A stretch of DNA of 22,875 bases from a virus. Below the pieces are notes generated by a model, which saw only the letters and a list, made by a program, of their open reading frames with translations, was not told where the DNA came from and ran no database searches. A program made the translations under genes and the position numbers. Positions 4,595 through 19,900 of the stretch are shown here, one piece after another; position 1 is the stretch's first letter, and each line of letters opens with the position of its first letter. The stretch lies in the IMG/VR virus record IMGVR_UViG_3300037189_030636, positions 1 to 22,875 of that record; one strand, given 5' to 3'.

Positions 4595-4602
4595 TATTTA
4601 TG
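4595..4602 (-). promoter_or_regulatory. Late promoter box CATAAATA for the leftward arm
   Basis: Minus-strand CATAAATA, overlapping the start codon of the plus-strand gp48-like gene and 32 nt before the gp4-like ATG. With the plus-strand box at 4563-4570 it makes a compact divergent pair whose predicted transcripts overlap. Confidence 0.55.
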
Positions 4603-5709
4603 GCTGCTGTAACACCAATACCAACTGTTAATACCAACGCAGAACTCAACGCAAAAACTTTTAGTAAAAGCGGCGGTACTACTGTTGATCAAACCACGCA
4701 ACAGAATTTTAAATACAACGTTAATTCACTGACCTATCCCTATGATGTAGACTCTGCGGATTATCCGCACTTTGTTGTTTTCTACATCAACATTCGTGGT
4801 AAAAGCAAATACAATGGGCCCGGTGGTTCCTACAAGACTGTCGAAGTTACCAGCGCAGGGCAGAATCGCGTCAACGAAACTAAACTTGGTAATAACGTGG
4901 ATACAGCAGTTACTCTGGGTGCTGGTTATGCAGGCTACAAGGGCGTTAATACATTATTGGCAAATACAAACATTGTTAAAAATGCCAAGACAAAATTGGT
5001 GTTGCAGGCCGCTGGCGCTGTTGCCGGCGCTACTCTTGCCAGCGGAACCTTTGAAGGCGACAAAAAGTTCAGAATTGACAGTGCCATAATGCTGGCTGTC
5101 AACGACAGACCCAGCACACAATATCGGGTTGAATATCGATCCACAGATCTGGGTAGCCTGGGTGGGTTCATTGCCGGTGGTAGTTCTGCCACAGACAGCA
5201 CCGAAGACTTTGCCGTTGAAAGCGCTAAAGCAGCCATTATCAATGCACTGCAAATTCCAGCTGCTATTACCAGTAATCTGGATCCCAAGTCACTGGTTTC
5301 TCTGGGTACAGGCATGGCACTAAACCCATTCCGTGAACAGGTTTTTCAAAACGTTGAAACCCGAACCTTTGCTTTTGACTATAAATTTTTGCCACGCAAT
5401 GCCGATGAAACCAGGGCAGCGCATAAAATCATTGAACTGTTTAAATTTCACATGCATCCCGAATTGGCCAAGGGTGGCATGTTCTACATCTATCCCAGTA
5501 CCTTTGATATACAATACTTTTTCCAGGGAAAAGAAAATCCACACGTGAACAAGATCAGCGAATGCGTGTTGTCATCCATGAAGGTTGACTATGGAACACA
5601 GAGTCAGATGTCGTCTTTTGCCGATGGATCACCCACAGAAATCAACCTGTCCCTGACCTTTGTTGAACTCGAAGTGTTGACCAAAGAACGCATAGTAAAG
5701 GGCTATTAA
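4600..5709 (+). CDS. 48: gp48-like baseplate tail-tube cap protein
   Basis: 369 residues, matching T4 gp48 (364). The N-terminal part contains NSLTYPYDVDSADYPHFVVF, followed by an Ala/Gly-rich hydrophobic middle at about residues 100-155. The conserved half starts near residue 243 (NPFREQVFQNVETRTFAFDY), continues with LPRNADETRAAHKIIELFKF and the HPEL and FDIQYF segments, and ends with VLSSMKVDYGTQ, a FADGSPTEINLSL strand and the LTKERIVKGY end, as in the gp48 tail-cap family. gp48 sits on the hub with gp54 and starts tube growth. The start at 4600 is preceded by AGGA about 10 nt upstream and by a late promoter box. Its stop overlaps the gp53 start (TAATG). Confidence 0.8.
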   Translation: MAAVTPIPTVNTNAELNAKTFSKSGGTTVDQTTQQNFKYNVNSLTYPYDVDSADYPHFVVFYINIRGKSKYNGPGGSYKTVEVTSAGQNRVNETKLGNNVDTAVTLGAGYAGYKGVNTLLANTNIVKNAKTKLVLQAAGAVAGATLASGTFEGDKKFRIDSAIMLAVNDRPSTQYRVEYRSTDLGSLGGFIAGGSSATDSTEDFAVESAKAAIINALQIPAAITSNLDPKSLVSLGTGMALNPFREQVFQNVETRTFAFDYKFLPRNADETRAAHKIIELFKFHMHPELAKGGMFYIYPSTFDIQYFFQGKENPHVNKISECVLSSMKVDYGTQSQMSSFADGSPTEINLSLTFVELEVLTKERIVKGY

Positions 5710-6203
5710 TGTATTTCTCACAATTTCCATATTTAAAATACAGCCTGGATGGCGGTACTACAAATTTTATTGTTCGCGATATATTTCGTCGAGTTAAAAC
5801 TGAATCCATGGCCATTCAAAATGATCTGGCCTACTATAATTACATTGTTCGTGACGGCGACACTCCAGAAATTTTAGCCGATAAAATCTACGATAACCCA
5901 CAATATCACTGGGTGCTGTTAATTGTCAATGAAATTATTGATCCACGCTGGGACTGGATTTTACCAGAAAATGTTTTATATGCCTACATTGTTGACAAAT
6001 ATGGTCAGAGCAACATCAACAGCGCACATCACTATGTCAATGCAGCCGGCTATGTTGTCAACAGCACTGCGCCCGGACGCATCGCTGTATCCAACTATGA
6101 TTATGAAGTAACTGAGAACGAAAAGAAAAGAGAAATAAAAATTTTGAAACCCGAATATCTGAATCTATTCCTCAAATCATTTGCTGAGGTGGCCATTCAA
6201 TGA
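5709..6203 (+). CDS. 53: Baseplate wedge protein gp53
   Basis: 164 residues, slightly shorter than T4 gp53 (196). The pattern MYFSQFPYLKY, VRDIFRRVK, YIVRDGDTPEILADKIY, HWVLLIVNEIIDPRWDW and KKREIKILKPEY is characteristic of the gp53 family. The YIVRDGDTPEILA segment resembles a LysM start. In T4, gp53 clamps neighbouring wedges and lets six wedges join round the hub. It overlaps gp48 by 1 nt and the next gene by 4 nt (ATGA), consistent with a coupled wedge/hub operon. Confidence 0.85.
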   Translation: MYFSQFPYLKYSLDGGTTNFIVRDIFRRVKTESMAIQNDLAYYNYIVRDGDTPEILADKIYDNPQYHWVLLIVNEIIDPRWDWILPENVLYAYIVDKYGQSNINSAHHYVNAAGYVVNSTAPGRIAVSNYDYEVTENEKKREIKILKPEYLNLFLKSFAEVAIQ

Positions 6204-7498
6204 CGGCTGAAGTTCAAACACCGGGCGAGGTACAGATTGTCGATGTCTTGCTTAGCAAGAACGCTGGCACCAAACAAATAAACCTGGTACTCTTTACAGT
6301 TGAGATCAACATCTATGAAGATATCATGCGCAACGGCATGTATGGTACCATACTGATTGCTGATGCTGCCAACATTGCTGGACTGTTTCCCATTACTGGC
6401 GCCGAGATGTTGAAGATAGCCTTCAAGACTCCGGGCATGGAAGAAGGATTCAACGATGAGTTTCAAGTCTACAGCATATCCGACAAGATCATGCTCAAGG
6501 ATACTGGCACACAGGGCTACATTCTACACTTTGTTATTCCCGAATTAATGACTGATGTGCAGACTCCGGTATGGGGTACCTGGAGTGGTTATCCGTTGGG
6601 AATTGCCGACATGATTTTTAAAACTTATTTTTCCGACAAAAAAACGCTGAATCGCATTGGTGCTGATGCTGCAGAAGTAACCTTTACCAGCCCTGGCTGG
6701 CGTCCCAGCAAGGCCATCAACTGGCTGGCATCACGCAGCGTTCCTTTTGGACAAGGCGATTTGCCAGGAGCCTTGTTTTTCCAGAGCAGTAAAAGCTATC
6801 ATCTGGTCAACTACAGTACTTTATTGAGATCCAGTGCTGATTTTGGCGAATATACATATATACCAGCCAACCTATCAGGCACAACCGATGGCAATTTTGT
6901 CAAGGATGTGCAGGCAGAATACTTTAAAATTGAAAACATGGAAGTTAAAGAAACCTACAATGGGTTGAAAAATCTGCACAGTGGATTTTACGCCAATCGT
7001 TTATTGACTCTGGATATCATGAAAAAGTCCTATGAAGTCACAGAATATGATCATATTTCCAGTTTCCAAAGCCGACCAAAATTGAATCCTTTTCCTTCCT
7101 ATCCAGATATCCTGAACAGAAACCCTGCAACTGTGTTGACAGTATATCCTCAGTTATCTGACATGTATGGCAAACCCGGAGAAAGACCACCCGGTGTTAG
7201 CATGACCGTCAAAGGTAGTCTGGGTGCAGGTCGTATCAGCGCCATTCTAGAGCTGGATAATTTTAAAATTGAAATTACTGTACCAGGGCGCACCGATATT
7301 GAAGTGGGTCGCACCATTAAACTATATGTTCCAGATTCATCGCCGCGAGATGAGGGCGATACTTCGGACCGCAGAGAAGATAAGGTATATTCGGGACGTT
7401 ATCTTATTACAGCAATACGACATAAATTGACATTGCAGAAGCACATGATGATCATGGAAATTGTCAAAGAAAGCACCTTACAGGATTACAATAAATGA
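6200..7498 (+). CDS. 27: Baseplate hub protein, gp27-like
   Basis: 432 residues, near T4 gp27 (391). Visible segments are QINLVLFTVEINIYEDIMRN and YGTILIADAANI in the first tube-like domain, then ISDKIMLKDTGTQGYILHFV. Near the C-terminus are GRTIKLYVPDSSPRDEG and YSGRYLITAIRHKL. gp27 is the trimeric hub ring that links the tube to the gp5 spike. The position directly before gp5, with a 4-nt overlap at each end (ATGA), matches that role. Identification combines context and remembered family pattern; a gp44-like hub of another myophage type is the alternative name for the same role. Confidence 0.75.
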   Translation: MTAEVQTPGEVQIVDVLLSKNAGTKQINLVLFTVEINIYEDIMRNGMYGTILIADAANIAGLFPITGAEMLKIAFKTPGMEEGFNDEFQVYSISDKIMLKDTGTQGYILHFVIPELMTDVQTPVWGTWSGYPLGIADMIFKTYFSDKKTLNRIGADAAEVTFTSPGWRPSKAINWLASRSVPFGQGDLPGALFFQSSKSYHLVNYSTLLRSSADFGEYTYIPANLSGTTDGNFVKDVQAEYFKIENMEVKETYNGLKNLHSGFYANRLLTLDIMKKSYEVTEYDHISSFQSRPKLNPFPSYPDILNRNPATVLTVYPQLSDMYGKPGERPPGVSMTVKGSLGAGRISAILELDNFKIEITVPGRTDIEVGRTIKLYVPDSSPRDEGDTSDRREDKVYSGRYLITAIRHKLTLQKHMMIMEIVKESTLQDYNK

Positions 7499-10302
7499 AT
7501 TTAGATAATATTTTTGCCAAAGACGGATTCTTCTGGTGGATCGGCGTTGTTGAAGATCGTGAAGATCCCATGAAAATTGGACGCTGCCGAGTACGTATTT
7601 TTGGCTATCATCAGCCAGTTATTCCCAAGGAAGACCTGCCCTGGGCCATGCCCATGCAATCTATTACCAGTGCTGCCATTGGTGGCAAAGGGTCCTCACC
7701 AGTTGGACCCCTGGAAGGAACCTGGGTCATTGGCTTCTTCTTGGATGGTGCCAACTGTCAGAATCCCTGCATGATGGGAACCATTGGTGGTCTGCCCAAA
7801 GCTCCTCCAGCCGGCGGCGTAAGACAGGGAGATACCACTGGTACTGGTGTTGTTACCGACGGCGAAGGCAACCCAATCAAGGATGCCAATGGTGACCCCA
7901 TTACACAAAATGAAGACACCACCACACAGCCTTCTAATACAGGAACCAACTTTCAAATTTTTATTGCTGAATGTAAAAAGCTGGGATTGACCGATCCCAA
8001 GTTCCTGGCGGCCGCAGTTGGCAATGTCTACAAAGAATGTCAGTTCAATCCCCGAGCACCTGAAGATTTAAAAGGCTATGCAAATACTGCTAAAAAAGCT
8101 CTGGTCAATGGTAAAACTGGTCCAGATTATATCAGATCAGTATTTGGTTCCCGTGTATCCAGATTCAGTGATGCAGAAATTATTGCATTGACTGCCGATG
8201 AACGCAAATGGGGCGATGTGGTGTATGGATATCAGACCGAAATCGGACGCGGCATGCAGAACACAGAACCCGGCGACGGATTTAAATATCGGGGCCGCGG
8301 ATTTATTCAATTGACTGGCAAGAAAAACTACAGAGAAATTGGTGCCATCATTGGTGTTGATCTGGTCAACAATCCTGACAAAGCCAATGACCCACAGATT
8401 GCTGCGCGGGCAGCGGCCGCATATTTTAAACGCGCAGCTGGTAGCACTTATATACAGTCACAGACCGGCGTTAAGTTTCCAGGCGCAACACAGGCCGATG
8501 CCGATCTCTGGGCCACATCAGCAGTTGCTGGCAGCGACATTAGAAAAAAAGGCGACATTGGTAAAACAATTTTAGATAAAGTCAATGGTTATTCTGCCAA
8601 GTATGTTCCGGGTACGGCAGGCGGCAAAGAAATTGCCCAGATTGGAGAACAGCTGTCTCCTCCCCCAAGTCAGGTGGCTGCAAAAAATCAACCCGATCCA
8701 AATACAACCAAGTCAACCGATAAACTAAACAATCCGACTCTGGGCAAGCCCACTGCCTACAGTGATCCCAACAATGCCTACCCCGCAGCCAATTATGAGA
8801 ATCGTAAAGTTGGCGGCGATACCAATAAATTAGCCACTGGTGGCCAGGAAGCTCGCGAGACTCCGGTACTGGTGGCAAAAAATGACAAACGTCTAACCAA
8901 TATCCTGGCTGGCAATCCCGATGAGTGGGATGAACCAGAAAGTGCCTATTGTGCCAAGTATCCCTATAACCATATGATTGAGACCGAAAGTGGTCACATA
9001 CTGGAAATGGATGATACGCCGCAGAGAGAAAGACTTCACTTATATCATCGCGCCGGCACCTTCTTTGAGATTGACCAATTTGGCAGCATGCATGAACACA
9101 TACAGGGGGATTACCACGGCGTGTTTGTGCGCAACAACAAGGTATACATTCGCGGTGGCTATGATGTAACTGTGGAAAAAGCCACGCGCATCCTGGCCAA
9201 GGATGCCCTGCAGATTATCAGCTATGGCGCAACCAAGATTGATATTCGCAACGATGCCACTGTCAATGTTCATGGCAAGGCCGACGTTAGTGTCACCGAA
9301 GACCTAAAGGTTCGTGGCAAAAATCTCTACATGGAATCGGAAAACGATATTCATATCAAGGCCGGTGGCTCGTTGTTCATGGGCGCCAATGATGTTCATA
9401 TACGAGGTAGCGGTTCAGTAAATCTCGACGGCGGAACCACAGACATCAACAGCGGCAGTGCAGGATCACCCTCGGGCACCGGATTATCAGCTCCAGCCGA
9501 TCGTCGCAGTCCTCCGGGCGATGGCAGATTTGAAGATTTAAAGCGTCCAGGATGCGATCCAGATTCGGAATTCAAAGGCAACAACGATGCTGGCGAGGCG
9601 CCTCCGGGTGCTGGTATTGCTGCTGGTGTACAAACTCAGGAAGATGCGAATACCAGCAAGGCCAAGCAAGATGAAGGTTGCAAACGATCTGACCTAAACA
9701 AGCCTAGCATTGTTGCGCCTACTCCCTATAAATTGGGTGAATTTGAGAGCTTCAAGGCCACGCCCTATACCATACAGTTAAGCAAGAGATTCAAGCTCGG
9801 TGATGTGGCTCACGTTGGTAGCGAAAGCGCTGCCCTGAACAAAGAATTCTGGAGCAATGCCAATCAGACAACACACCCTGGCTGCGGCCTAAGCAAGTCA
9901 CAGATTTTAGACAATCTGCGAGGCTTGTGTGTCAATGTCCTGGATCCTATCAAAGACAAATATCCGCAGATGATGATGACCAGTTGTCTGAGATTTGATG
10001 TACCGGCCGGCGGCGCGGCCAAATCACAGCATTTAACAGGTTGTGCGGTGGACATGCAGTTCGGCAGCGACCTGTCACAGCTATATGACATTGCACTCTG
10101 GATACGTGACAATGTTGCCTTTGATCAGCTATTGCTGGAATACTACAACGGCAAGGGCAAATATACTGGTTGGATTCACGTCAGTTTCAATCCCAAGGGC
10201 AATCGCCCTGCCGGTGGTGCCAAGGTTGGAACATTTATTGACCATCAGGTGGCCAAGGGTAAAGACGGCACACCAAAATGGTATTTGTGTGATTTGAGCT
10301 AA
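7495..10302 (+). CDS. 5: gp5-like central spike with GH19 muramidase/chitinase-type and M15 peptidase domains
   Basis: 935 residues, far longer than T4 gp5 (575). Domains in order: an OB-fold at about 1-105 (WWIGVVEDREDP, CRVRIFGYH, LPWAMPMQSI, GTWVIGFFLDG); a GH19-type glycosidase at about 153-370, with candidate catalytic E181 in YKECQFN and the hallmark KYRGRGFIQLTGKKNY at 264-279; a low-complexity linker at 371-480; a beta-helix needle at about 485-660 (SGHILEMDDT, then short repeating strands with DIRNDATVNVHG and DIHIKAGGS); a polar linker; and an M15_3-type zinc peptidase at about 740-935. Zinc ligands there are H846 and D853 in SQHLTGCAVD and H895 in WIHVS, with E882 as possible catalytic acid. 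The spike would pierce the outer membrane and open peptidoglycan during injection. T4 has a GH24 lysozyme in the slot of the GH19 domain and nothing after the needle. It overlaps gp27 by 4 nt. Confidence 0.85.
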   Translation: MNLDNIFAKDGFFWWIGVVEDREDPMKIGRCRVRIFGYHQPVIPKEDLPWAMPMQSITSAAIGGKGSSPVGPLEGTWVIGFFLDGANCQNPCMMGTIGGLPKAPPAGGVRQGDTTGTGVVTDGEGNPIKDANGDPITQNEDTTTQPSNTGTNFQIFIAECKKLGLTDPKFLAAAVGNVYKECQFNPRAPEDLKGYANTAKKALVNGKTGPDYIRSVFGSRVSRFSDAEIIALTADERKWGDVVYGYQTEIGRGMQNTEPGDGFKYRGRGFIQLTGKKNYREIGAIIGVDLVNNPDKANDPQIAARAAAAYFKRAAGSTYIQSQTGVKFPGATQADADLWATSAVAGSDIRKKGDIGKTILDKVNGYSAKYVPGTAGGKEIAQIGEQLSPPPSQVAAKNQPDPNTTKSTDKLNNPTLGKPTAYSDPNNAYPAANYENRKVGGDTNKLATGGQEARETPVLVAKNDKRLTNILAGNPDEWDEPESAYCAKYPYNHMIETESGHILEMDDTPQRERLHLYHRAGTFFEIDQFGSMHEHIQGDYHGVFVRNNKVYIRGGYDVTVEKATRILAKDALQIISYGATKIDIRNDATVNVHGKADVSVTEDLKVRGKNLYMESENDIHIKAGGSLFMGANDVHIRGSGSVNLDGGTTDINSGSAGSPSGTGLSAPADRRSPPGDGRFEDLKRPGCDPDSEFKGNNDAGEAPPGAGIAAGVQTQEDANTSKAKQDEGCKRSDLNKPSIVAPTPYKLGEFESFKATPYTIQLSKRFKLGDVAHVGSESAALNKEFWSNANQTTHPGCGLSKSQILDNLRGLCVNVLDPIKDKYPQMMMTSCLRFDVPAGGAAKSQHLTGCAVDMQFGSDLSQLYDIALWIRDNVAFDQLLLEYYNGKGKYTGWIHVSFNPKGNRPAGGAKVGTFIDHQVAKGKDGTPKWYLCDLS

Positions 10303-10303
10303 T

Positions 10304-11230
10304 ATGGTGACCAGCAACAATATCAAGTATACCCTGGATTTTGAGCATGACTCAGGGGGCCTGTTTGGCTTAGGTCCTTTATTTGGTCTGCTCCTGAGCG
10401 ATATTGATCCAGTGTATGTCAGTACAGCTTTTACCAGCATTGGTACGATCTATGAGATTCTGCCCTTGACTGGATTGTCGGCGGTTTCAACCAGAGTCAC
10501 GGTCAGCAGTTTCACCATTAGTTATGCCAATACTAGTTTGACTCTGAGATGCGAAGGAACAACTGCCAATGCTCAGATCAAACTCTGGGGAACTCATGAA
10601 GGTGTGTTTCAAAAGGAAGAATGGTATACTCGAAACAGCAAACAAGAAGATACCCGAGATTCGGCTGGCGCAGAAGTTGATTTAAAATATATTAAGGTAT
10701 CCAAAAGCTATGATATTACTCCTGGATCTTTCTATGCTGGTTATAAAGCAGTGCCAGATCGCACTCTGAGTACCAGCATTACCTGGACAATTCGTTGCAG
10801 AGCAGACAACACATCACTGACCTTTACCGGCATTACCCAGAATATTCACAATGACTGGAATAAGTTTAGAAAAAACATCCGACCTTTTGTGTTAAAAAGT
10901 CAGAACGAAATTGCCACCAGTGGCACAGTTACCACCTATAGCTCGGCTACCTTTGTCAATCTACCCGCGGCTACATTTAGTGTCGCCAACACTACCAGCG
11001 TGACATCGGGCGCCACCATTACTGTGCGATTTGCCCAACCTCATAATGTGGCGTCGGGATCGATAATTGTTGTGGCAATTACCAGTACAGGCACCCGACA
11101 CAGTTTTGCTCAGGGAACTTTCTTTGCAGAAACTCTGCCCACGACCAGCAGCTTTACCTATACTGTGACCAGCATAGGAACAATCAGCACCACCACCAGT
11201 TTATTGGGTGCCGTGGGTTACTACAAATAA
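10304..11230 (+). CDS. Unrecognised structural protein between spike and PAAR tip
   Basis: 308 residues, not recognised. No signal peptide is evident; there is a short Gly/Leu/Phe-rich stretch near residues 18-32 (GGLFGLGPLFGLLLSD). Residues 60-200 are predicted beta-rich with a charged segment (EEWYTRNSKQEDTRD). The last 90 residues are Ser/Thr/Val-rich and read as short beta strands containing RFAQPHNVASG and ending GAVGYYK. That tail resembles small beta domains found on virion proteins of aquatic phages. It starts 1 nt after the gp5 stop with no strong Shine-Dalgarno, so it is probably coupled to gp5. It lies between spike and PAAR, so a tail or spike-associated part is likely, but this is inference from place only. 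Confidence 0.7.
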   Translation: MVTSNNIKYTLDFEHDSGGLFGLGPLFGLLLSDIDPVYVSTAFTSIGTIYEILPLTGLSAVSTRVTVSSFTISYANTSLTLRCEGTTANAQIKLWGTHEGVFQKEEWYTRNSKQEDTRDSAGAEVDLKYIKVSKSYDITPGSFYAGYKAVPDRTLSTSITWTIRCRADNTSLTFTGITQNIHNDWNKFRKNIRPFVLKSQNEIATSGTVTTYSSATFVNLPAATFSVANTTSVTSGATITVRFAQPHNVASGSIIVVAITSTGTRHSFAQGTFFAETLPTTSSFTYTVTSIGTISTTTSLLGAVGYYK

Positions 11231-11238
11231 GGAAGAAC

Positions 11239-11529
11239 ATGGCAGCTGCAGCAAGACTAGGCGATATTTGTTCGGGGCATGGATGTTTTCCTCCCAGAGC
11301 AGGAACCGACGCCAGCAGCAACGTAAGAATCAATGGCATCTTTGCACATCGTCTGGGTGACGGTTGGAATACCCACTGCTGCCCCAACAATGGGTGTCAT
11401 CCCAGCAATATTGGCGGCGGCAGCGGCACAGTTAGAATCAATGGCAAGGCAGCTGCCCGCATTGGCGATAGTGTGGCTTGTGGCTCAGTAATTGCACAAG
11501 GTAGCAGCAACGTGTTCATCGGTGGATAA
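11239..11529 (+). CDS. PAAR-domain spike tip protein (gp5.4-like)
   Basis: 96 residues, the size of T4 gp5.4 (97). It begins with the PAAR-type AAARLGD and contains the repeated motifs VRINGIFAHRLGD (29-41) and VRINGKAAARIGD (65-77), then SVACGSVIAQGSSNVFIGG. The fold is a small cone that caps the blunt end of the gp5 beta-helix and binds a metal ion. It is rich in cysteine and histidine: C11, H14, C16, H37, H46, C47, C48, C53, H54, C81, more than a single metal site requires. The start is set by AAGGAAG 3 nt before the ATG. Close spacing to the gene before it (8 nt) suggests co-expression with the hub operon. Confidence 0.9.
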   Translation: MAAAARLGDICSGHGCFPPRAGTDASSNVRINGIFAHRLGDGWNTHCCPNNGCHPSNIGGGSGTVRINGKAAARIGDSVACGSVIAQGSSNVFIGG

Positions 11530-11538: not shown

Positions 11539-11928
11539 ATGTCAACTAAAACCTTCATAGATCTGGACGCAGCCATGGGGCTGAACCCACGCACACGCGA
11601 TGTCGCTGTTAAAACCAACGACAATGCCATACGTGGGGCGCTGAGAAATCTGATTCATACCAATCACTATGATCGTCCGTTTCATCCGGAAATTGGTTGT
11701 CAAATTCATGCGCTGATGTTTGAGAATATAACTGGTCTTACTGCTATTCTTGCAGAAAGAACCATACGCGATAGCATTGGAAAATTCGAACCGCGCGTTG
11801 AAATTCTAGAAGTAACTGTATCAGAAATGTTGAACAACCCCAATGAGATGAATATCAACCTGGTCTACAAGATCAGAAACACCAATGAAGTGTCACAATT
11901 TACAACCAAATTTACTAGGATTCGATAA
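11539..11928 (+). CDS. 25: Baseplate wedge protein gp25
   Basis: 129 residues, as in T4 gp25 (132). It has the gp25/lysozyme-like baseplate pattern: VKTNDNAIRGALRNLI, then NHYDRPFHPEIGCQI, and the EPR signature at residues 84-86 in FEPRVEILEV, ending in a beta strand. Despite the family name it is structural: it joins gp6 in the wedge core and holds the first sheath ring. The stop overlaps the gp6 ATG by one base (TAATG). Confidence 0.9.
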   Translation: MSTKTFIDLDAAMGLNPRTRDVAVKTNDNAIRGALRNLIHTNHYDRPFHPEIGCQIHALMFENITGLTAILAERTIRDSIGKFEPRVEILEVTVSEMLNNPNEMNINLVYKIRNTNEVSQFTTKFTRIR

Positions 11929-13778
11929 TGGCCAATACCAGAGTCACAGAATTAGACTTTGATACAATCAAGCAGAATCTGAAGTTGTTTTTAAAAGAAC
12001 AAAGCCAGTTTACTGACTACGATTTTGAAGGCAGTAACCTGAGTGTTCTGCTGGATCTGCTATCATATAATACTCACTACAATGCTGTGTTGGCCAACAT
12101 GGTTAGCAACGAAATGTACATGGATACCGCATTAAAACGCGGCAGCGTGGCCAGCCTGGCTAAACATCTGCGGTATACACCCAACAGTGTACGCTCAGCC
12201 ATGGCCAAGGTCAAACTCACCCTAACCAATATACCTGCAGCACCAACCTATGTTATATTGGAGCCCTTTACTGATTTTAATGTAGAAGTTGATGGTACGA
12301 CACTGACCTTCTACAACAATGTTGCCTATACAGCATTTCCCAACAGCGTTGGAGAATATGTATTTGAAGAAGTAATTGTCTACGAAGGCACATCGCTGGA
12401 TTACTTTTATGTGATAGGTGAATCACCAACACCGGCCAACAAATATAGTTTACCCAATGACAATGTTGATACGTCTACAATTAAAGTCAAGGTAACCTAC
12501 CCCAGTAATGTGGTAGAAACCTATACCCGCATGGATGATATTACCACAGCCAACTCTGCCAGCACCTACTATTATCTGGAAGAAGCCACGGATGGAAAAT
12601 ACTGTATCTTTTTTGGTGATGGTGTGCTGGGCAAAAATCCCCCGGCTGGCAGCGTTGTATCAATACAATATTTGATTAGCAATGGCACTGGTGGCAATAT
12701 CAGCACCAATGTTCCAGTTACATGGACTGTGTCCAGTATTGCCGGTGAATCAGACGCCAACAGAACCATAGATACTATTAGTCGTCCAAGCGGCGGATCC
12801 AATGGCGATACCGTTGAACAAATTCGTTTCAATGCCATCAATCGTTATTCAACCAATGGCAGAGCAGTAACTGCCAAGGACTATGCCAGCATTATCAGTG
12901 CAGAATTGCCGGGCGCACAGAGCGTCAATGTCTGGGGTGGTGAAAATCAAAATCCTCCGGCATTTGGCAGAATCTACATCAGTGTCAAACCCAAGACTGG
13001 CTACGTATTGACCGAGCTGGAAAAACAACGCATTGTCAATGAAATATTAAAACCCCGCAGCATGGTCACAATAAATCATGAATTTGTGGATCCTATCTAC
13101 AGTCATTTAAATTTAAATGTAGATGTTAAATATGACAATGCACTGACCAATGTATCAAATGCCACACTGGTATCGCAGGTCAGTGATCTAGTCCAGACCT
13201 TTATTGACACCAAGCTGGAAAGATTCAACGAAACCTTCTATCCCAGCCAGTTGCAGGAACAAATCATGGCACTGGATGAGTCAATTATAAGCACCAATAT
13301 TATCATTGAAATGCAGAAACGTGTTACCATAACATCGGGCGTTATTTTTACCGGCGAAGTTAAATTTCCTGCTAAAATTCACCCAGGTACATTGACCAGC
13401 AACTTCTTTATTATTCAGGATTCTGTGGGCGCACTTACCAAGGTTAGAATGCGTGACTTTCCCAATGACACACCAGCCGACTACAATGGGTCGGGAGTTA
13501 TTAGATTGATCAATGTGGCTACTGGGGTAATTGTCAACGATAATTTTGGTTCTATTAACTATGGATCGGGCATATTACATATACCTGCCCTGGATGTCTA
13601 TGGATTCATAGGTGCCAGTTCTGATGTTCGTATCATGGCAGAAATTCAGGAAAATAATCGTGATATTACTCCGGGGTTCGACGAGATTTTAATTCTTGAC
13701 GACACCACTGCCGATTCAACCAGCAATTTAAAGAACGGCCTAACTGTTAATGTTAACCAGTTAGTCAAAGTTAGATGA
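11928..13778 (+). CDS. 6: Baseplate wedge protein gp6 (gpJ-like)
   Basis: 616 residues (T4 gp6 is 660). The N-terminus has FDTIKQNLKLFLKEQ, FEGSNLSVLLDLLSYNTHYN and MYMDTALKRGSVASLAKHL, the typical gp6 opening. The FGDGVLG motif of gpJ-like baseplate proteins is at about 229-235, and the RPSGGSNGD block with RAVTAKDYASII and GRIYISVKPKTGY follows. gp6 dimers form the inner ring that holds wedges together. It sits between gp25 and the gp7-position gene, overlapping both by 1 and 4 nt, which matches the gp25-gp6-gp7 wedge core. Confidence 0.9.
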   Translation: MANTRVTELDFDTIKQNLKLFLKEQSQFTDYDFEGSNLSVLLDLLSYNTHYNAVLANMVSNEMYMDTALKRGSVASLAKHLRYTPNSVRSAMAKVKLTLTNIPAAPTYVILEPFTDFNVEVDGTTLTFYNNVAYTAFPNSVGEYVFEEVIVYEGTSLDYFYVIGESPTPANKYSLPNDNVDTSTIKVKVTYPSNVVETYTRMDDITTANSASTYYYLEEATDGKYCIFFGDGVLGKNPPAGSVVSIQYLISNGTGGNISTNVPVTWTVSSIAGESDANRTIDTISRPSGGSNGDTVEQIRFNAINRYSTNGRAVTAKDYASIISAELPGAQSVNVWGGENQNPPAFGRIYISVKPKTGYVLTELEKQRIVNEILKPRSMVTINHEFVDPIYSHLNLNVDVKYDNALTNVSNATLVSQVSDLVQTFIDTKLERFNETFYPSQLQEQIMALDESIISTNIIIEMQKRVTITSGVIFTGEVKFPAKIHPGTLTSNFFIIQDSVGALTKVRMRDFPNDTPADYNGSGVIRLINVATGVIVNDNFGSINYGSGILHIPALDVYGFIGASSDVRIMAEIQENNRDITPGFDEILILDDTTADSTSNLKNGLTVNVNQLVKVR

Positions 13779-15511
13779 CAACAGATCGCAAACTTAGTTT
13801 ATTTTTAAACGAACAATTACCTGATTATGTTCAGGAATACTATCCTTTGTTTGTTATTTTTGTAACCAAATATTTTGAATGGTTAGAACAACAGGGCAAC
13901 CCCCAGGACATTATTCAGACAATTCAGCTTAATCGCGACATTGATACTGTGGCATCTAGTCTGACTCTGCGATTTTTGAACAACTACATGCCCAATCTGC
14001 CCAATGAGTTTACTGCAGATAAGACACTGATTATTAAATACATGAGAGATTTCTATGAGCGCAAGGGCAGTGTAAATAGTTTTAAATTCTTCTTCAAGGC
14101 CTTCTTCAACGACGACATTGAAATTGTCAGACCCAGCGAAAGTGTTTTTAAGTTATCAGATTCTCGCTGGCTGAGACGTAAAAAACTGCGAGTTCTCTAT
14201 GAATCTGGCAACCCTCTAAATCTGCGTGGCGCAATTATTACTGGTTCCAGCACTGGTGCAACTGCCAACATTGATGATGTGATTCAAATTAACATCAGCA
14301 AATCCTATGACGTCTTGCTGCAGACTCAGAGCATTACTGGAACCTTCAGTAGTTCTGAGACACTGGTGGCATATTATTGGAATTTTGATACCGACACCAG
14401 CAGTCAGGTAGTCCTGGTCAACACCGATTTGGTCATTGAATTGCCTGGTAGAACTCTGGATAGTCACAGTCAGCTGAGCTCGGATCAGCGACTGCAGGAC
14501 AGTTATTACTATCAGAATTTTGCCTATGTTATCAACAGCGCAATCAATCGTGAAAAATGGCAACGAGCCATCTTGGATCAGCTGCATCCTGCAGGCCATG
14601 CAGCCTTCAACAATCGCATTGTTGCTGCTCCAGCCATCACAGTTACCAGTACCTTTGTAATAACCAATCTATCTGAAGCGTCGGTGCAGTTCTTCACAGA
14701 AAAAGATTTCTATATTGATTCGGGCTACACCTTTGATCGTCTGGCCGACTTCAGAACCGGCACCAGCGCTACCACCAGTGCAGGTGCCATTGTCTATGAT
14801 GCAACCTTTGCCTATCAGGGTGAAAACGTCACCTTTGGTCTGCAGAAGGGCGGCGACGACGTCACCTTTGGAACAACCCGTATTCAGGTTGTGGGATCGG
14901 GTGCCACTTTTGATAAAGTTGGTGCGGGTGTCAAGGCAACCAGCACAATCATAGCCGATGGCAACAACATAGACAGCAGCCAGGTAACCCAGTATCTGCA
15001 TTCAAATACCACCTTGTCCTATACATCTGGGCAGACCATTGTAACCGGCAGTATCTATGACTTTACTAGCTGTCTGTTGATTGTGACCTGGATGAAAGAC
15101 CCCAGCGGCAACGCTGCCAGTGAAGCAACCAATGCACTGACTCTGAATGTTAGCTCAACCGTTGGTATGGCCATTGTGTATGATGCCGAAATTCAAAGAA
15201 ACTATCGTGATATAGCACTGGGCGATAGTTTGTTCTACAAAGACATGACCTACTACAACAGCAGCAACACATTGACCAACATCAGTGGCAATCTAAGCGG
15301 ATCATCCATTGGTTCGCTGGCAACCACCCGGTTTAATTTTATCCCCTACAATGTTAATCGCAGCCAGAGTTTCAGCAGAATGGTGCTTAAAATCGACGCT
15401 ACCTTTGGCTGTACCGTGGATTTTAGCCTGAGCGTGAGCAGCGGCTCTGCGACATTCAATGCCAGACCCGAAGATCATCTAAATGTTGTGGTCGTGGGTG
15501 CAACACTATGA
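13775..15511 (+). CDS. Wedge protein in the gp7 position
   Basis: 578 residues. The N-terminal 150 residues are well formed and helical (LNEQLPDYVQEYYPLFVIFV, YFEWLEQQGNPQDIIQTIQL, then NNYMPNLPNEF and MRDFYERKGSVNSFKFFFKA), recalling the tail proteins that follow gp6 in aquatic T4-like phages. The following region is Ser/Thr-rich beta sequence with repeated GATANIDDV- and VTFG-like strands. T4 gp7 is 1032 residues, so if this is the gp7 counterpart it is about half as long. It overlaps gp6 by 4 nt (ATGA), which supports an obligate wedge partner. The exact name is uncertain. Confidence 0.65.
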   Translation: MTTDRKLSLFLNEQLPDYVQEYYPLFVIFVTKYFEWLEQQGNPQDIIQTIQLNRDIDTVASSLTLRFLNNYMPNLPNEFTADKTLIIKYMRDFYERKGSVNSFKFFFKAFFNDDIEIVRPSESVFKLSDSRWLRRKKLRVLYESGNPLNLRGAIITGSSTGATANIDDVIQINISKSYDVLLQTQSITGTFSSSETLVAYYWNFDTDTSSQVVLVNTDLVIELPGRTLDSHSQLSSDQRLQDSYYYQNFAYVINSAINREKWQRAILDQLHPAGHAAFNNRIVAAPAITVTSTFVITNLSEASVQFFTEKDFYIDSGYTFDRLADFRTGTSATTSAGAIVYDATFAYQGENVTFGLQKGGDDVTFGTTRIQVVGSGATFDKVGAGVKATSTIIADGNNIDSSQVTQYLHSNTTLSYTSGQTIVTGSIYDFTSCLLIVTWMKDPSGNAASEATNALTLNVSSTVGMAIVYDAEIQRNYRDIALGDSLFYKDMTYYNSSNTLTNISGNLSGSSIGSLATTRFNFIPYNVNRSQSFSRMVLKIDATFGCTVDFSLSVSSGSATFNARPEDHLNVVVVGATL

Positions 15512-15517
15512 TAAATA
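15510..15517 (+). promoter_or_regulatory. Late promoter box GATAAATA for gp8
   Basis: GATAAATA overlaps the stop of the preceding gene and lies 22 nt before the gp8 ATG at 15540. The AT-rich leader contains AAGGA 5 nt before the ATG. Spacing to the start codon leaves room for a ribosome-binding site after the likely transcript start. Confidence 0.6.
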
Positions 15518-15539
15518 AACAAATAAATTAAGGACTATT

Positions 15540-16970
15540 ATGGCCATTGTAACAAGTAAATTTCGAACTCAGGCTGCCAGCAGCTTTACACAGAGATTTA
15601 GTGCCGACAACATGTATTTGGTTCTGGCACGCCCTCAGCCCTGGGATGATACTCTGAGCACACGTTTTACTGCGCAGGGAACGGGAACCATTACTGATAT
15701 TAATACTCCCAACCCAGTTGACAATTCTCTGAACGAATATGCCATGTGGCGTGATGCCATGGCAGCAATCAAGTTAACTGCCAGCAATGTCAAGGTTGTC
15801 ACTTCAAGAAACAACTGGCAAACAGGCACACGCTATGACATGTATCGCCATGATATTAGCTCAACCAGACCCACCAGTACTGGTAAATATACCCTGAGCG
15901 ATTCCAATTTTCTCGTCTATGATTCAGACTCAGGGCGTGTCTACAAGTGTCTGCACAACGGAGCAGGCGCACAATATACCACTGGCGTTGTCAGCACAGT
16001 CAAACCAACCACCATTGATACTCAGCCACAGGCCACGGGCGACGGCTATATCTGGAAATACATGTTTACTGTGCCAGCTGGCGAAGCAGATTTTATTACT
16101 GCCAACTACATTCCAGTTCCAACAACAGGTACTGCCAGTAATATCAATGGCATTGATGTCGTTGTTGTTGACGACGGCGGTACATACAACGGTATCCCCA
16201 GTGTCGTTATCTACGGCGATGGCACAGGAGCCGCGGCAGTAGCAGTTACTTCAGCCAATACGGTGATTCGTGTTGACATGACCAACAACGGCACTGGCTA
16301 TACCTGGGCCAAGGTCGTATTCTCTGGCGGTTTGCCAGTTACTGCGGCCAAGGCAACGGCTATTATATCACCAGCCGGTGGTCATGGAACTAATCCGCAG
16401 GCTGAATGTAATGCCCATAATGTCATGATTTCAGGTACTGTCAGTGGTTATCAGAATGCCGACGTTCCAGTTAATCAGGATTTCCGCATTGTTGGTGTGG
16501 TTCGCAATCCTGCGACATATACCACCAGCGTTGCAACATCAACAACAACCCTGTTTACAGCCAGTACTGGTCGGGTAATGCGCACCATGACCATGACCAG
16601 TACTGCCACAACGCCACCTGTTCTGGATGCTACCATTAGTGCAGTCAGTGGCGCCAAAGGTATTTTTGTGTTCCAGAGTTCAGGAACAACCAGACTTGAG
16701 TTCATTCAACCCATTGCCAGCGATACCAGTATTTTAAGTGCAACGGAAACTGCTAGAATCAATACAGCAGGCACCAAGAGCCTGTATCAGTTCAGTAGTT
16801 CCGACGTCATTACAACAACTGCTGGTTATAGTGCTGCTGTTAGCAGCGTTACAACAACCATGCCAGAAATTCAGCCCTACAGTGGTGAATTGTTGTATTT
16901 AGATTACCGTCAGCCAGTAACTCGCAATGCAGGGCAGAACGAAAAGATAAATATCGTTATTAATTTCTAA
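15540..16970 (+). CDS. 8: Baseplate wedge protein gp8
   Basis: 476 residues, longer than T4 gp8 (334). It begins with VTSKFRTQAASSFTQRF, followed by ADNMYLVLARPQPWDD, TGKYTLSDSNFLVYDSDSGR and VYKCL, DGYIWKYMFTVPAGEADFI, a Gly/Thr-rich middle at about 200-260, and the typical end GELLYLDYRQPVTRNAGQNE with KINIVINF. gp8 is a peripheral wedge protein linking gp7, gp10 and the fibre network. Extra length is in the Thr/Ser/Ala-rich central and late regions (about residues 300-440). Preceded by its own late box and AAGGA. Confidence 0.8.
   Translation: MAIVTSKFRTQAASSFTQRFSADNMYLVLARPQPWDDTLSTRFTAQGTGTITDINTPNPVDNSLNEYAMWRDAMAAIKLTASNVKVVTSRNNWQTGTRYDMYRHDISSTRPTSTGKYTLSDSNFLVYDSDSGRVYKCLHNGAGAQYTTGVVSTVKPTTIDTQPQATGDGYIWKYMFTVPAGEADFITANYIPVPTTGTASNINGIDVVVVDDGGTYNGIPSVVIYGDGTGAAAVAVTSANTVIRVDMTNNGTGYTWAKVVFSGGLPVTAAKATAIISPAGGHGTNPQAECNAHNVMISGTVSGYQNADVPVNQDFRIVGVVRNPATYTTSVATSTTTLFTASTGRVMRTMTMTSTATTPPVLDATISAVSGAKGIFVFQSSGTTRLEFIQPIASDTSILSATETARINTAGTKSLYQFSSSDVITTTAGYSAAVSSVTTTMPEIQPYSGELLYLDYRQPVTRNAGQNEKINIVINF
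16946..16953 (+). promoter_or_regulatory. Late promoter box GATAAATA for the DUF4815 gene
   Basis: GATAAATA is embedded in the last codons of gp8 (K-I-N-I), 41 nt before the ATG at 16995. AAGG follows at 16982-16985. The same octamer and orientation recur before gp48, gp25 and gp8. Confidence 0.5.
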
Positions 16971-16994: not shown

Positions 16995-19900
16995 ATGGAT
17001 TTCAACCAATCGCCTTATTTTGACGACTTTGACGCACAAAAGAACTTTTACAAGGTTCTTTTCCGTCCAGGCGTTGCAGTTCAAACTCGCGAACTAAATC
17101 AACTACAGAGTATCCTTCAGGATCAGGTCACCAAATTTGGTACCAATATCTTTAAAGAGGGGTCCATGGTCATTCCTGGTAATATCAGGTACAATGACCG
17201 ATACAGCTACATCAAGTTGGCAGGCAAATCGCTGGGATCAAATTCTCTGTCCTATCTCGAAGGCAAAGAAATTTGTGCTGGCATCCTGGGCACTGGTGTT
17301 AAAGCCTATGTTATCAAGGCAGTTGTAGCTGAAAACAGCGATCCAGATACTCTGATTGTCATGTACACCAGTGGAGATGAAGCCCAATCAGCTGGCGGTG
17401 GCAAAGCCTTTACGCCAGGACAGACCCTATATGTTGTCGATGAATTAACTCTAAATGTAGTTCTACAAAACGGTCTAGACGCAATTGGACGTTCTGCACT
17501 GGCCAATATCCAGGAAGGCGTTTATTTTATCAATGGTTACTTTGTTTCTGTACCAGCACAGGATCTGGTAATTGAAAAGTATGTCAATGCAATCACTGAT
17601 ATTTCCTATAAAGCAGGGTTGCTTTACAGTGAGGCAGTAGTCACTGCCGAAGATGATGAAAGTTTGTATGATAATGCAAGCAGCACAACCAACTTTACTG
17701 CACCGGGTGCTCATCGTTACACCATTACAGCAGATTTTGTAAAATATGGTCTGGATGACACACCAGAAAACTTTTTTGAATTGCTGAGAATTGAATACGG
17801 TTCAGTTCAAAAGATAGTTCGAAACAGTCAATACAACATCCTTGAAGAAACTCTGGCTCGCCGTACCTATGACGAAAGCGGCAACTATGTTGTAGATCCA
17901 TTCCGACTGCAGGTGCGCGAACATCGCAAGAACAATCGCGGTGCTTGGTTAGGGGCAACCAAATATCGTGTTGGTGATTACATTGTGGTTGACGGCAGAT
18001 ATTTTGTCTGCATACATTCGGGCGAAAGTGCGGCGTCTCAGACAACAGCCTTTGCCACTGCCGACGAAACATCGTCTATTACAGATAATACTGTGACCTG
18101 GAGATATACAGTTGCTCCAAGAAGCAACAATGGTTTCTTGACACCAGAACAGGGCGGCAGCACCAGCAATCTGGTATTTGCTGTGACCGATGGCAAGGCC
18201 TATGTGCGTGGCCACGAAGTGGTTCGCGAAGAAACCTTTAACCTGGTTGTTCCTAAATCACGCTCAACCAGTGTAACTGTTTCCCGCACATTTCCAGTTA
18301 AAAATGGCAACTACATTATTTTGGATAGAAACGCAACCTGGGGCTTACCAGATATTTCATCTGGTCCCAAGGTAACACTCTATGATCGTAGTTTAGGTGA
18401 TTCAAGTTTGTCGCTGAAATTTGGTTTTGGTAATCCAGTTGGTACTGCCAGAATTAAGTACATTGACAGCGACTTCAGCGGCGGGTTGAAACTGGGCCTG
18501 TTTGATGCCACCATGGCACCAGGTCGCAGTCTGGATCGCGATGTCAACATGGTTGCCATCATTGATAGTTCAGCCTCTACCACTGCCAAGTCCTATAAAC
18601 TAAGCGGAACCTTCCGCTATACCGGCGGCACAGAAACCAGCAGTACACAAATCCAGGTTGATAACCGCTTTACCTTCGGCTCCATTGCAGCCGGTGGATC
18701 GGGCACATTGACCTCGGTTGGTACCATCTTTACCAAACAAATTACCAGTGGCGACACACTGACCTTTACCACTACTGGTAACACCCTGCAGACAGTTACG
18801 GTTGCCGTTGTTACCAATGACACATCAATTACCATCAAGAACATTGGTGCTACAACAATTAGCAATAGTTCAGGCCTGACCAGTGCCGCAGTTACACTGC
18901 CGGCATTCACAGTATTTGGAGCCACCAGTGCATCGGCTCTGTGCTATGAACTACGCGAAGGCGATACAGTATTCCTGAGCTCAGCCAGCAGCTATATTTC
19001 CGGTACAGTTACCAAGATCTTTACATTCCTAGATGTTCATGGCGACAGCAGAACGCGCATGACCATTAGTTCAACTGCAACAACCGCAGTTGGTACCAGT
19101 GGTACCGCAGCCAGAATGGACCTGTATGTTCAATATACTGGTCAGGCCGCCAGCTTTATTGGTAATATTCTGGGACAGTACAACGTTGGCGTCAATGCCA
19201 CCAAGTTGACTGGATTGTTTACACTCAAGGATGTAGATGGTACCAATACCATTGATCCAGCCCCACATCAGGCAGTGCGTATTTCAGCCACGGGCGCAGA
19301 CGCTCGTCTGCTAACCGAACAGTTGTATTTAAATGATTTGATTGATGTCAATGGATATCGTATCTACATCACACGCCGTTCAACCAATCAGGCAGCCTAT
19401 GGTATTTGTCTGGATCAGACAGTACCAACCACTGACACATCGTATCCAGCATTCCTGATTGAAAATAAAATCTATGATACTGGTGACGCACAACTTCTGT
19501 ACAAGGTTGTTGAGACTCCGGCAAATATCACCGACGATTATTATCGCATCTACAAACAAAATACTCAGTATTTGGCCACAGCCACCAGTGTGCTGCAAAT
19601 TGCTCTGGCTTCGGGTGTCAATTACAGTGAAATTGCCTGGAGCAATGCGCCCATTGATTATCTGATTGCTGTCAGCGACACAACGGCTTTGACTACACAG
19701 GCGCTGATTCGTGACATTGTAACCACACCCAGCAATATTACCATCAACCTATACAATGCCATCAGTGGCACAGTTAGAATTACCTACACAGTAGACCGCG
19801 ACGGCACTGCTGGTAACCTGGGTGGATTAAAAACCAAAACACTGACCTTTAATCAGTTACAGGAAGTATTGTCCAGTTCAGTGTCCCGACAAACTTCAAT

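Follow-up and report, generated by a model that had tools for sequence, protein, structure and literature searches.

The locus considered here lies in a viral stretch of 22,875 nucleotides (positions 1 to 22,875 of IMG/VR record IMGVR_UViG_3300037189_030636; the whole stretch is called the window) and raises the question of whether a single spike protein of a T4-type tail carries two different wall-degrading enzymes and, if so, whether such a spike is peculiar to this virus or is one of many between which enzymes are exchanged.

Domain order of the spike and its locus

The 935-aa open reading frame starts with ATG, contains no internal stop and encodes, from the N-terminus, an OB fold, a GH19 domain, an octad beta-helix and an M15_3 zinc-peptidase domain (Table 1). 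The comparison of the whole chain with T4 gp5 (1pdl) by phmmer gave an E-value of 1.4e-32, the T4 protein aligning to the OB domain and the needle collar and leaving the stretch between them unaligned. Residues 546-668 showed a hydrophobic period of 8 residues at a level reached by 0 of 5000 shuffles. In PHROGs each enzyme domain has an endolysin match of its own beside the hub/lysozyme match, and NCBIfam was found to hold no model for the spike protein. The presence of two different predicted wall-cutting domains on one chain, with a beta-helix between them, had been proposed in the sequence-only reading and was confirmed by Pfam and PHROG matches in that order, and by the lag-8 periodicity together with the similarity to the T4 collar. 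The OB domain, the octad beta-helix (predicted to trimerize) and the position in a T4-type baseplate operon with PAAR, gp53, gp25, gp6 and gp8 assign the protein to the T4-type gp5 spikes; it falls outside the T4 lysozyme subtype, since its middle slot holds GH19 instead of GH24.

Table 1. Features of the spike gene and of the neighbouring baseplate genes in the window
Feature	Position	Strand	Evidence or remark
Upstream genes: tail-tube cap, gp53 wedge, PHROG 350 tail protein	4600..7498	+	Pfam, PHROGs
gp5-type central spike / tail-associated lysozyme	7495..10302	+	935 aa; PHROG 430 'baseplate hub subunit and tail lysozyme' 6.5e-79
OB-fold domain, aa 11-106	7525..7812	+	Pfam PF06714 (Gp5_OB) 2e-20, cut-off passed; phmmer to T4 gp5
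GH19 domain, endolysin type, aa 153-372	7951..8610	+	Pfam PF00182 6e-9, segment alone
E181, putative GH19 catalytic Glu	8035..8037	+	aligned with E51 of PaGH19Lys; invariant 23/23
E190, second putative GH19 catalytic Glu	8062..8064	+	aligned with E60 of PaGH19Lys; invariant 23/23
RGRGFIQLTGKKNY motif, aa 266-279, contains Q272 and T274	8290..8331	+	sequence, alignment
Collar / start of trimeric needle (trimer predicted), aa 477-541	8923..9117	+	matches T4 gp5 residues 376-430
Octad beta-helix needle, aa 546-665	9130..9489	+	lag-8 periodicity; similarity to T4 needle
Low-complexity linker, needle to peptidase, aa 666-755	9490..9759	+	sequence
Tip M15_3 zinc-peptidase domain (predicted), aa 756-935	9760..10299	+	Pfam PF08291 2e-5 on segment alone; PHROG 894 endolysin 6e-16
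H846, predicted zinc ligand	10030..10032	+	invariant 37/37
D853, predicted zinc ligand	10051..10053	+	invariant 37/37
E882, likely catalytic base	10138..10140	+	invariant 37/37
H895, predicted zinc ligand	10177..10179	+	invariant 37/37
PAAR tip protein, 96 aa, separate gene, without enzyme domain	11239..11529	+	Pfam PF05488 2.6e-13; PHROG 281 3.5e-34
Downstream baseplate genes gp25, gp6, gp7-like, gp8	11539..16970	+	Pfam, PHROGs

Other genes of the window were recorded as well. Between gp5 and PAAR (10304-11230) lies a gene for a 308-aa protein to which Pfam, PHROGs and the phage records offered no counterpart; its homologue in contig L001, the nearest relative, has 214 aa, and the gene is missing from contigs L016, L096 and L097. 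On the strand opposite to the baseplate operon, positions 1-1485 encode a 495-aa protein without a PHROG match, adjoining a holin-like gene at 1488-1928. At the other end (16995-22874, plus strand) a very large ORF, cut by the window edge after 1960 aa, matches PHROG 358, a family of unassigned function. The nearest gp6 proteins, at about 33-35% identity, are those of Pelagibacter, Methylophilales and Synechococcus phages, too distant for naming a host.

Conserved residues of the two enzyme domains

In the whole-protein Pfam search the Glyco_hydro_19 profile matched residues 261-311 (4e-8, cut-off passed), and Peptidase_M15_3 matched residues 814-896 with 3.4e-4 and 21.1 bits, below its cut-off of 23.2. 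When the two segments were scanned alone, as the sequence-only reading had proposed, both scores exceeded their own Pfam cut-offs (GH19 36.4 bits; M15 25.0 bits). A profile of the spike GH19 domains matched the endolysin structures 8p8e, 9ms6, 4ok7 and 9eoi over nearly the full domain, with E-values from 1e-21 to 2e-29. Of these, 9eoi is PaGH19Lys, a muramidase whose active site includes H50, E51, E60, Y103, Q127 and T129 (PMC12329726). The alignment, together with the Q-x-T spacing, relates E181, E190, Y244, Q272 and T274 of the spike to E51, E60, Y103, Q127 and T129 (PMC12329726), and Y244, Q272 and T274 are, like the two Glu residues, invariant among the 23 spike GH19 domains aligned. The position of H50 is not conserved among them and is occupied by K180 in this spike. 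By its two predicted catalytic Glu residues and the active-site Tyr, Gln and Thr the domain is placed in the GH19 endolysin subfamily.

At the needle tip the zinc-ligand pattern of M15_3, HxxGxAxD ... WxH, is present with H846, D853 and H895, and R833 is also invariant in the 37 tip M15 domains aligned; the Peptidase_M15_3 family was matched by 25 of these 37. The search of PDB structures with an M15 profile yielded only sub-threshold matches to Sonic hedgehog, which has the same metallo-fold. The domain is predicted to be a zinc peptidase, with peptide bonds of the peptidoglycan as its putative target. The sequence-only reading had named E181, the RGRGFIQLTGKKNY motif (from residue 266) and H846, D853 and H895 at exactly these positions, and its assignment of an M15_3-type zinc peptidase holds; it was right about E181 but listed only one GH19 Glu, the second being E190. 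The catalytic residues, which might have been lost in a proper alignment, are kept in all 23 GH19 domains (Glu pair) and in all 37 M15 domains (His/Asp/His).

One of the two domains could still be a structural or wall-binding relic that keeps its fold without cutting during infection, the M15 domain, for example, only binding zinc or stabilizing the tip. M15-fold proteins can indeed lose catalysis, as Sonic hedgehog, the nearest solved match, recalls, and the whole-protein Pfam score for M15 is weak. Against this, the zinc ligands, R833 and E882 do not vary in the 37 M15 domains, divergent as these are, nor do the GH19 Glu residues in any of the 23 GH19 domains, and both enzyme domains are under strong purifying selection in the comparison of the window with L001 (dN/dS 0.15 and 0.04). 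A relic of this kind is therefore considered unlikely.

Exchange of the middle enzyme, placement of M15 and occurrence

The set of relatives comprised at least 91 ORFs that unite OB, needle and M15 on a single chain, nearly all of them from IMG/VR; at 95% identity they fall into 69 clusters. Middle enzymes were typed by profile searches; single-linkage clustering was dropped because the linkers merged all middle regions. Among the 91 single-chain M15 spikes listed from the profile scans, the order OB-GH19-helix-M15 was found in 44 (32 of the 69 clusters), and the middle slot of the others was empty (21) or was occupied by a GH24 lysozyme (19), a different lysozyme-like domain (5), a domain of VgrG3 type (1) or Phage_lysozyme2 (Cr30). 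On the tree built from the shared parts of the spike the enzyme types cluster, yet at least 9 changes are needed, the minimum possible for six types being 5. A single clade of all GH19 spikes was rejected by the AU test on these shared parts (p 0.0003), and with it the idea that GH19 entered this tree only once; the values were p 0.004 with OB and needle alone and p 0.02 with M15 alone. L017, which is most closely related to the group that includes the window, has a different middle enzyme. The window and L001 share 99% identity in the OB domain and 95% in the needle, with 66% in GH19; at synonymous sites they diverge by about 0.56 across OB and needle, by 1.7 in GH19 and by 1.6 in M15, values so near saturation that the contrast only suggests recombination between spikes.

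The M15 domain is also found elsewhere at the tip. Pseudomonas phage Milchi, Vibrio phage 1.244.A and several IMG/VR loci carry it as a fusion with the PAAR tip protein and have a gp5 without it; two M15 ORFs at one locus were not seen among the loci examined, within fetched windows of limited length. The suggestion of a modular spike that swaps enzymes between phages thus gained support from the varied middle slot, the rejected single origin of GH19 and the occurrence of M15 on PAAR. The sequence-only reading had also suggested that the pair may reflect adaptation to a wall needing two activities. The spikes of pf16, L021 and L027 carry M15 without any middle enzyme; both activities are therefore not always required, and these relatives argue against a strict need for the pair.

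A further reading takes M15 for a cargo or maturation factor that is cleaved in assembly or acts inside the particle and is no part of the working spike. The maturation cleavage of T4 gp5 is well established, the linker ahead of M15 is long, and some relatives encode the spike in two genes, divided behind the middle enzyme; in these split forms, however, M15 remains fused to the needle, and phages whose gp5 lacks it have it on the PAAR protein or another tip-region gene. The recurrence of M15 on needle, PAAR or other tip-region genes suggests that selection keeps it at the tip, and a role as cargo or maturation factor appears quite improbable.

As a separate observation, two adjacent genes (OB with middle enzyme; needle with M15) form the spike in L036-L039, L148, L151, L152, L168 and L011 (Melnitz), the split point lying after the middle enzyme, roughly at the site of the maturation cleavage of T4 gp5. 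In L037 (511-4661) the first gene contains GH19, and the second has, ahead of needle and M15, a region resembling, by eye, the lysozyme-like domain of L017, apparently degenerate and perhaps the remnant of an exchanged enzyme. A middle domain with the motif RESSxNYxAVNxLGYVGKYQFG occurs in L017, L025, L075, L091, L172, L173, L190 and L222; it has no Pfam match in L017 and possibly represents an undescribed type of lysozyme or transglycosylase.

The whole architecture recurs in the independent contigs L001 (85% identity), L016, L096 and L097, and among 50,697 phage records searched by tblastn one isolate, Synechococcus phage BUCT-ZZ01, showed it across 80% or more of the length. Since the first profile queries included M15, a second scan was run with the 65-residue collar alone; in its best 80 loci, a sample ordered by how similar they are to the window and no census, M15 was on the needle chain in 45 and GH19 and M15 occurred together in 19. 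A collar scan of genome contigs yielded no more than 23 loci, and the assemblies concerned bear the labels of many phyla. The sequence-only reading had proposed a survey of gp5 architectures and had named many known gp5 proteins of just this build as grounds for refutation; rarity does not hold, the exact layout being widespread among environmental T4-like phages (44/91; 19 of the best 80) and present in BUCT-ZZ01. The GH19-M15 spike is thus a common design of environmental T4-like viruses. It is apparently undescribed: no account of such gp5 spikes was found in the open-access literature, most subscription journals lying outside the search. An assembly artefact or fusion error joining a spike to an endolysin has a negligible probability, the same layout being found in many independent contigs, which rule out a chimeric assembly, and in the complete genome of BUCT-ZZ01.

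Proposed mode of action and comparison with known systems

We consider it likely that the protein serves a T4-type contractile-tail phage as its trimeric central spike and works with two enzymes, a predicted muramidase at mid-shaft and, at the tip next to the PAAR cap, a predicted peptidase. The OB fold would seat the spike in the baseplate hub, the muramidase-type GH19 would take the mid-shaft place of the T4 GH24 lysozyme, the separate PAAR protein would cap the beta-helix needle, and the M15_3 peptidase would hang from the needle end by its flexible linker. On sheath contraction the three tip peptidases would enter the periplasm first and cut peptide bonds of the peptidoglycan; the GH19 domains would come next with the shaft, cutting glycan strands and widening the hole for the tube. 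The location of M15 on the PAAR tip protein of other phages fits a tip function and, as M15 stands at the needle tip in all alternatives, on gp5 or on PAAR, a tip peptidase acting first and a glycan cut by the shaft next is the most economical reading. It is tempting to speculate, tentatively and with some doubt, that environmental phages of Gram-negative hosts generally have a tip M15 in their T4-type spike, a component that has so far escaped notice, with one M15 per spike locus (gp5 or PAAR) beside an exchangeable middle glycan-cutter, entry proceeding by a peptide and then a glycan cut. Should the wide occurrence of spikes with a tip peptidase and a glycan-cutter be confirmed, a single lysozyme per spike, as in T4, is not the general case, and such spikes could serve as a ready source of paired enzymes and as a test case for the exchange of entry enzymes.

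T4 gp5 (PDB 1k28/1pdl) shares with the window spike the OB fold, a middle-slot enzyme, the collar, the octad beta-helix and a PAAR partner (gp5.4 in T4), but its middle enzyme is GH24 and it has none beyond the needle. The hub subunit of BUCT-ZZ01 (UTS51949.1, 939 aa), a phage of S. elongatus PCC 7942, has the OB-GH19-helix-M15 order over its full length and similar sizes and order of upstream genes, at only about 30% identity; it is annotated merely as a T4-like gp5. The spikes of Cr30 (Caulobacter), pf16 (Pseudomonas) and Methylophilales phage Melnitz have a homologous M15 at the needle end and differ in the middle slot, which holds Phage_lysozyme2 in Cr30, nothing in pf16 and a VanY-type domain in Melnitz, whose spike is, moreover, genetically split, unlike the single chain of the window. 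All four isolates with a gp5-borne tip M15 infect Gram-negative bacteria. Spike and tip proteins with C-terminal enzyme extensions are also known as evolved VgrG and PAAR effectors of type VI secretion; these, however, are toxins delivered against rivals and do not serve wall penetration for genome entry.

The hub protein gp15 of cyanophage A-1(L) contains endoglucanase and peptidase domains, both shown to lyse host cells (PMC10966104), and thus unites glycan-cutting and peptide-cutting domains on one baseplate protein, as predicted for the window spike; its enzymes are located on the hub and not on the spike needle, and the domains and their order are different. According to a review, a single catalytic domain is typical of the virion-associated lysins with which phages attack Gram-negative hosts, and virion peptidase domains are almost confined to phages of Gram-positive hosts (PMC6116005). 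The A-1(L) hub is a counter-example to this statement and, in contrast to it, the surveys presented here indicate that spikes combining a tip peptidase with a glycan-cutter, by their predicted activities, are common in environmental T4-like phages.
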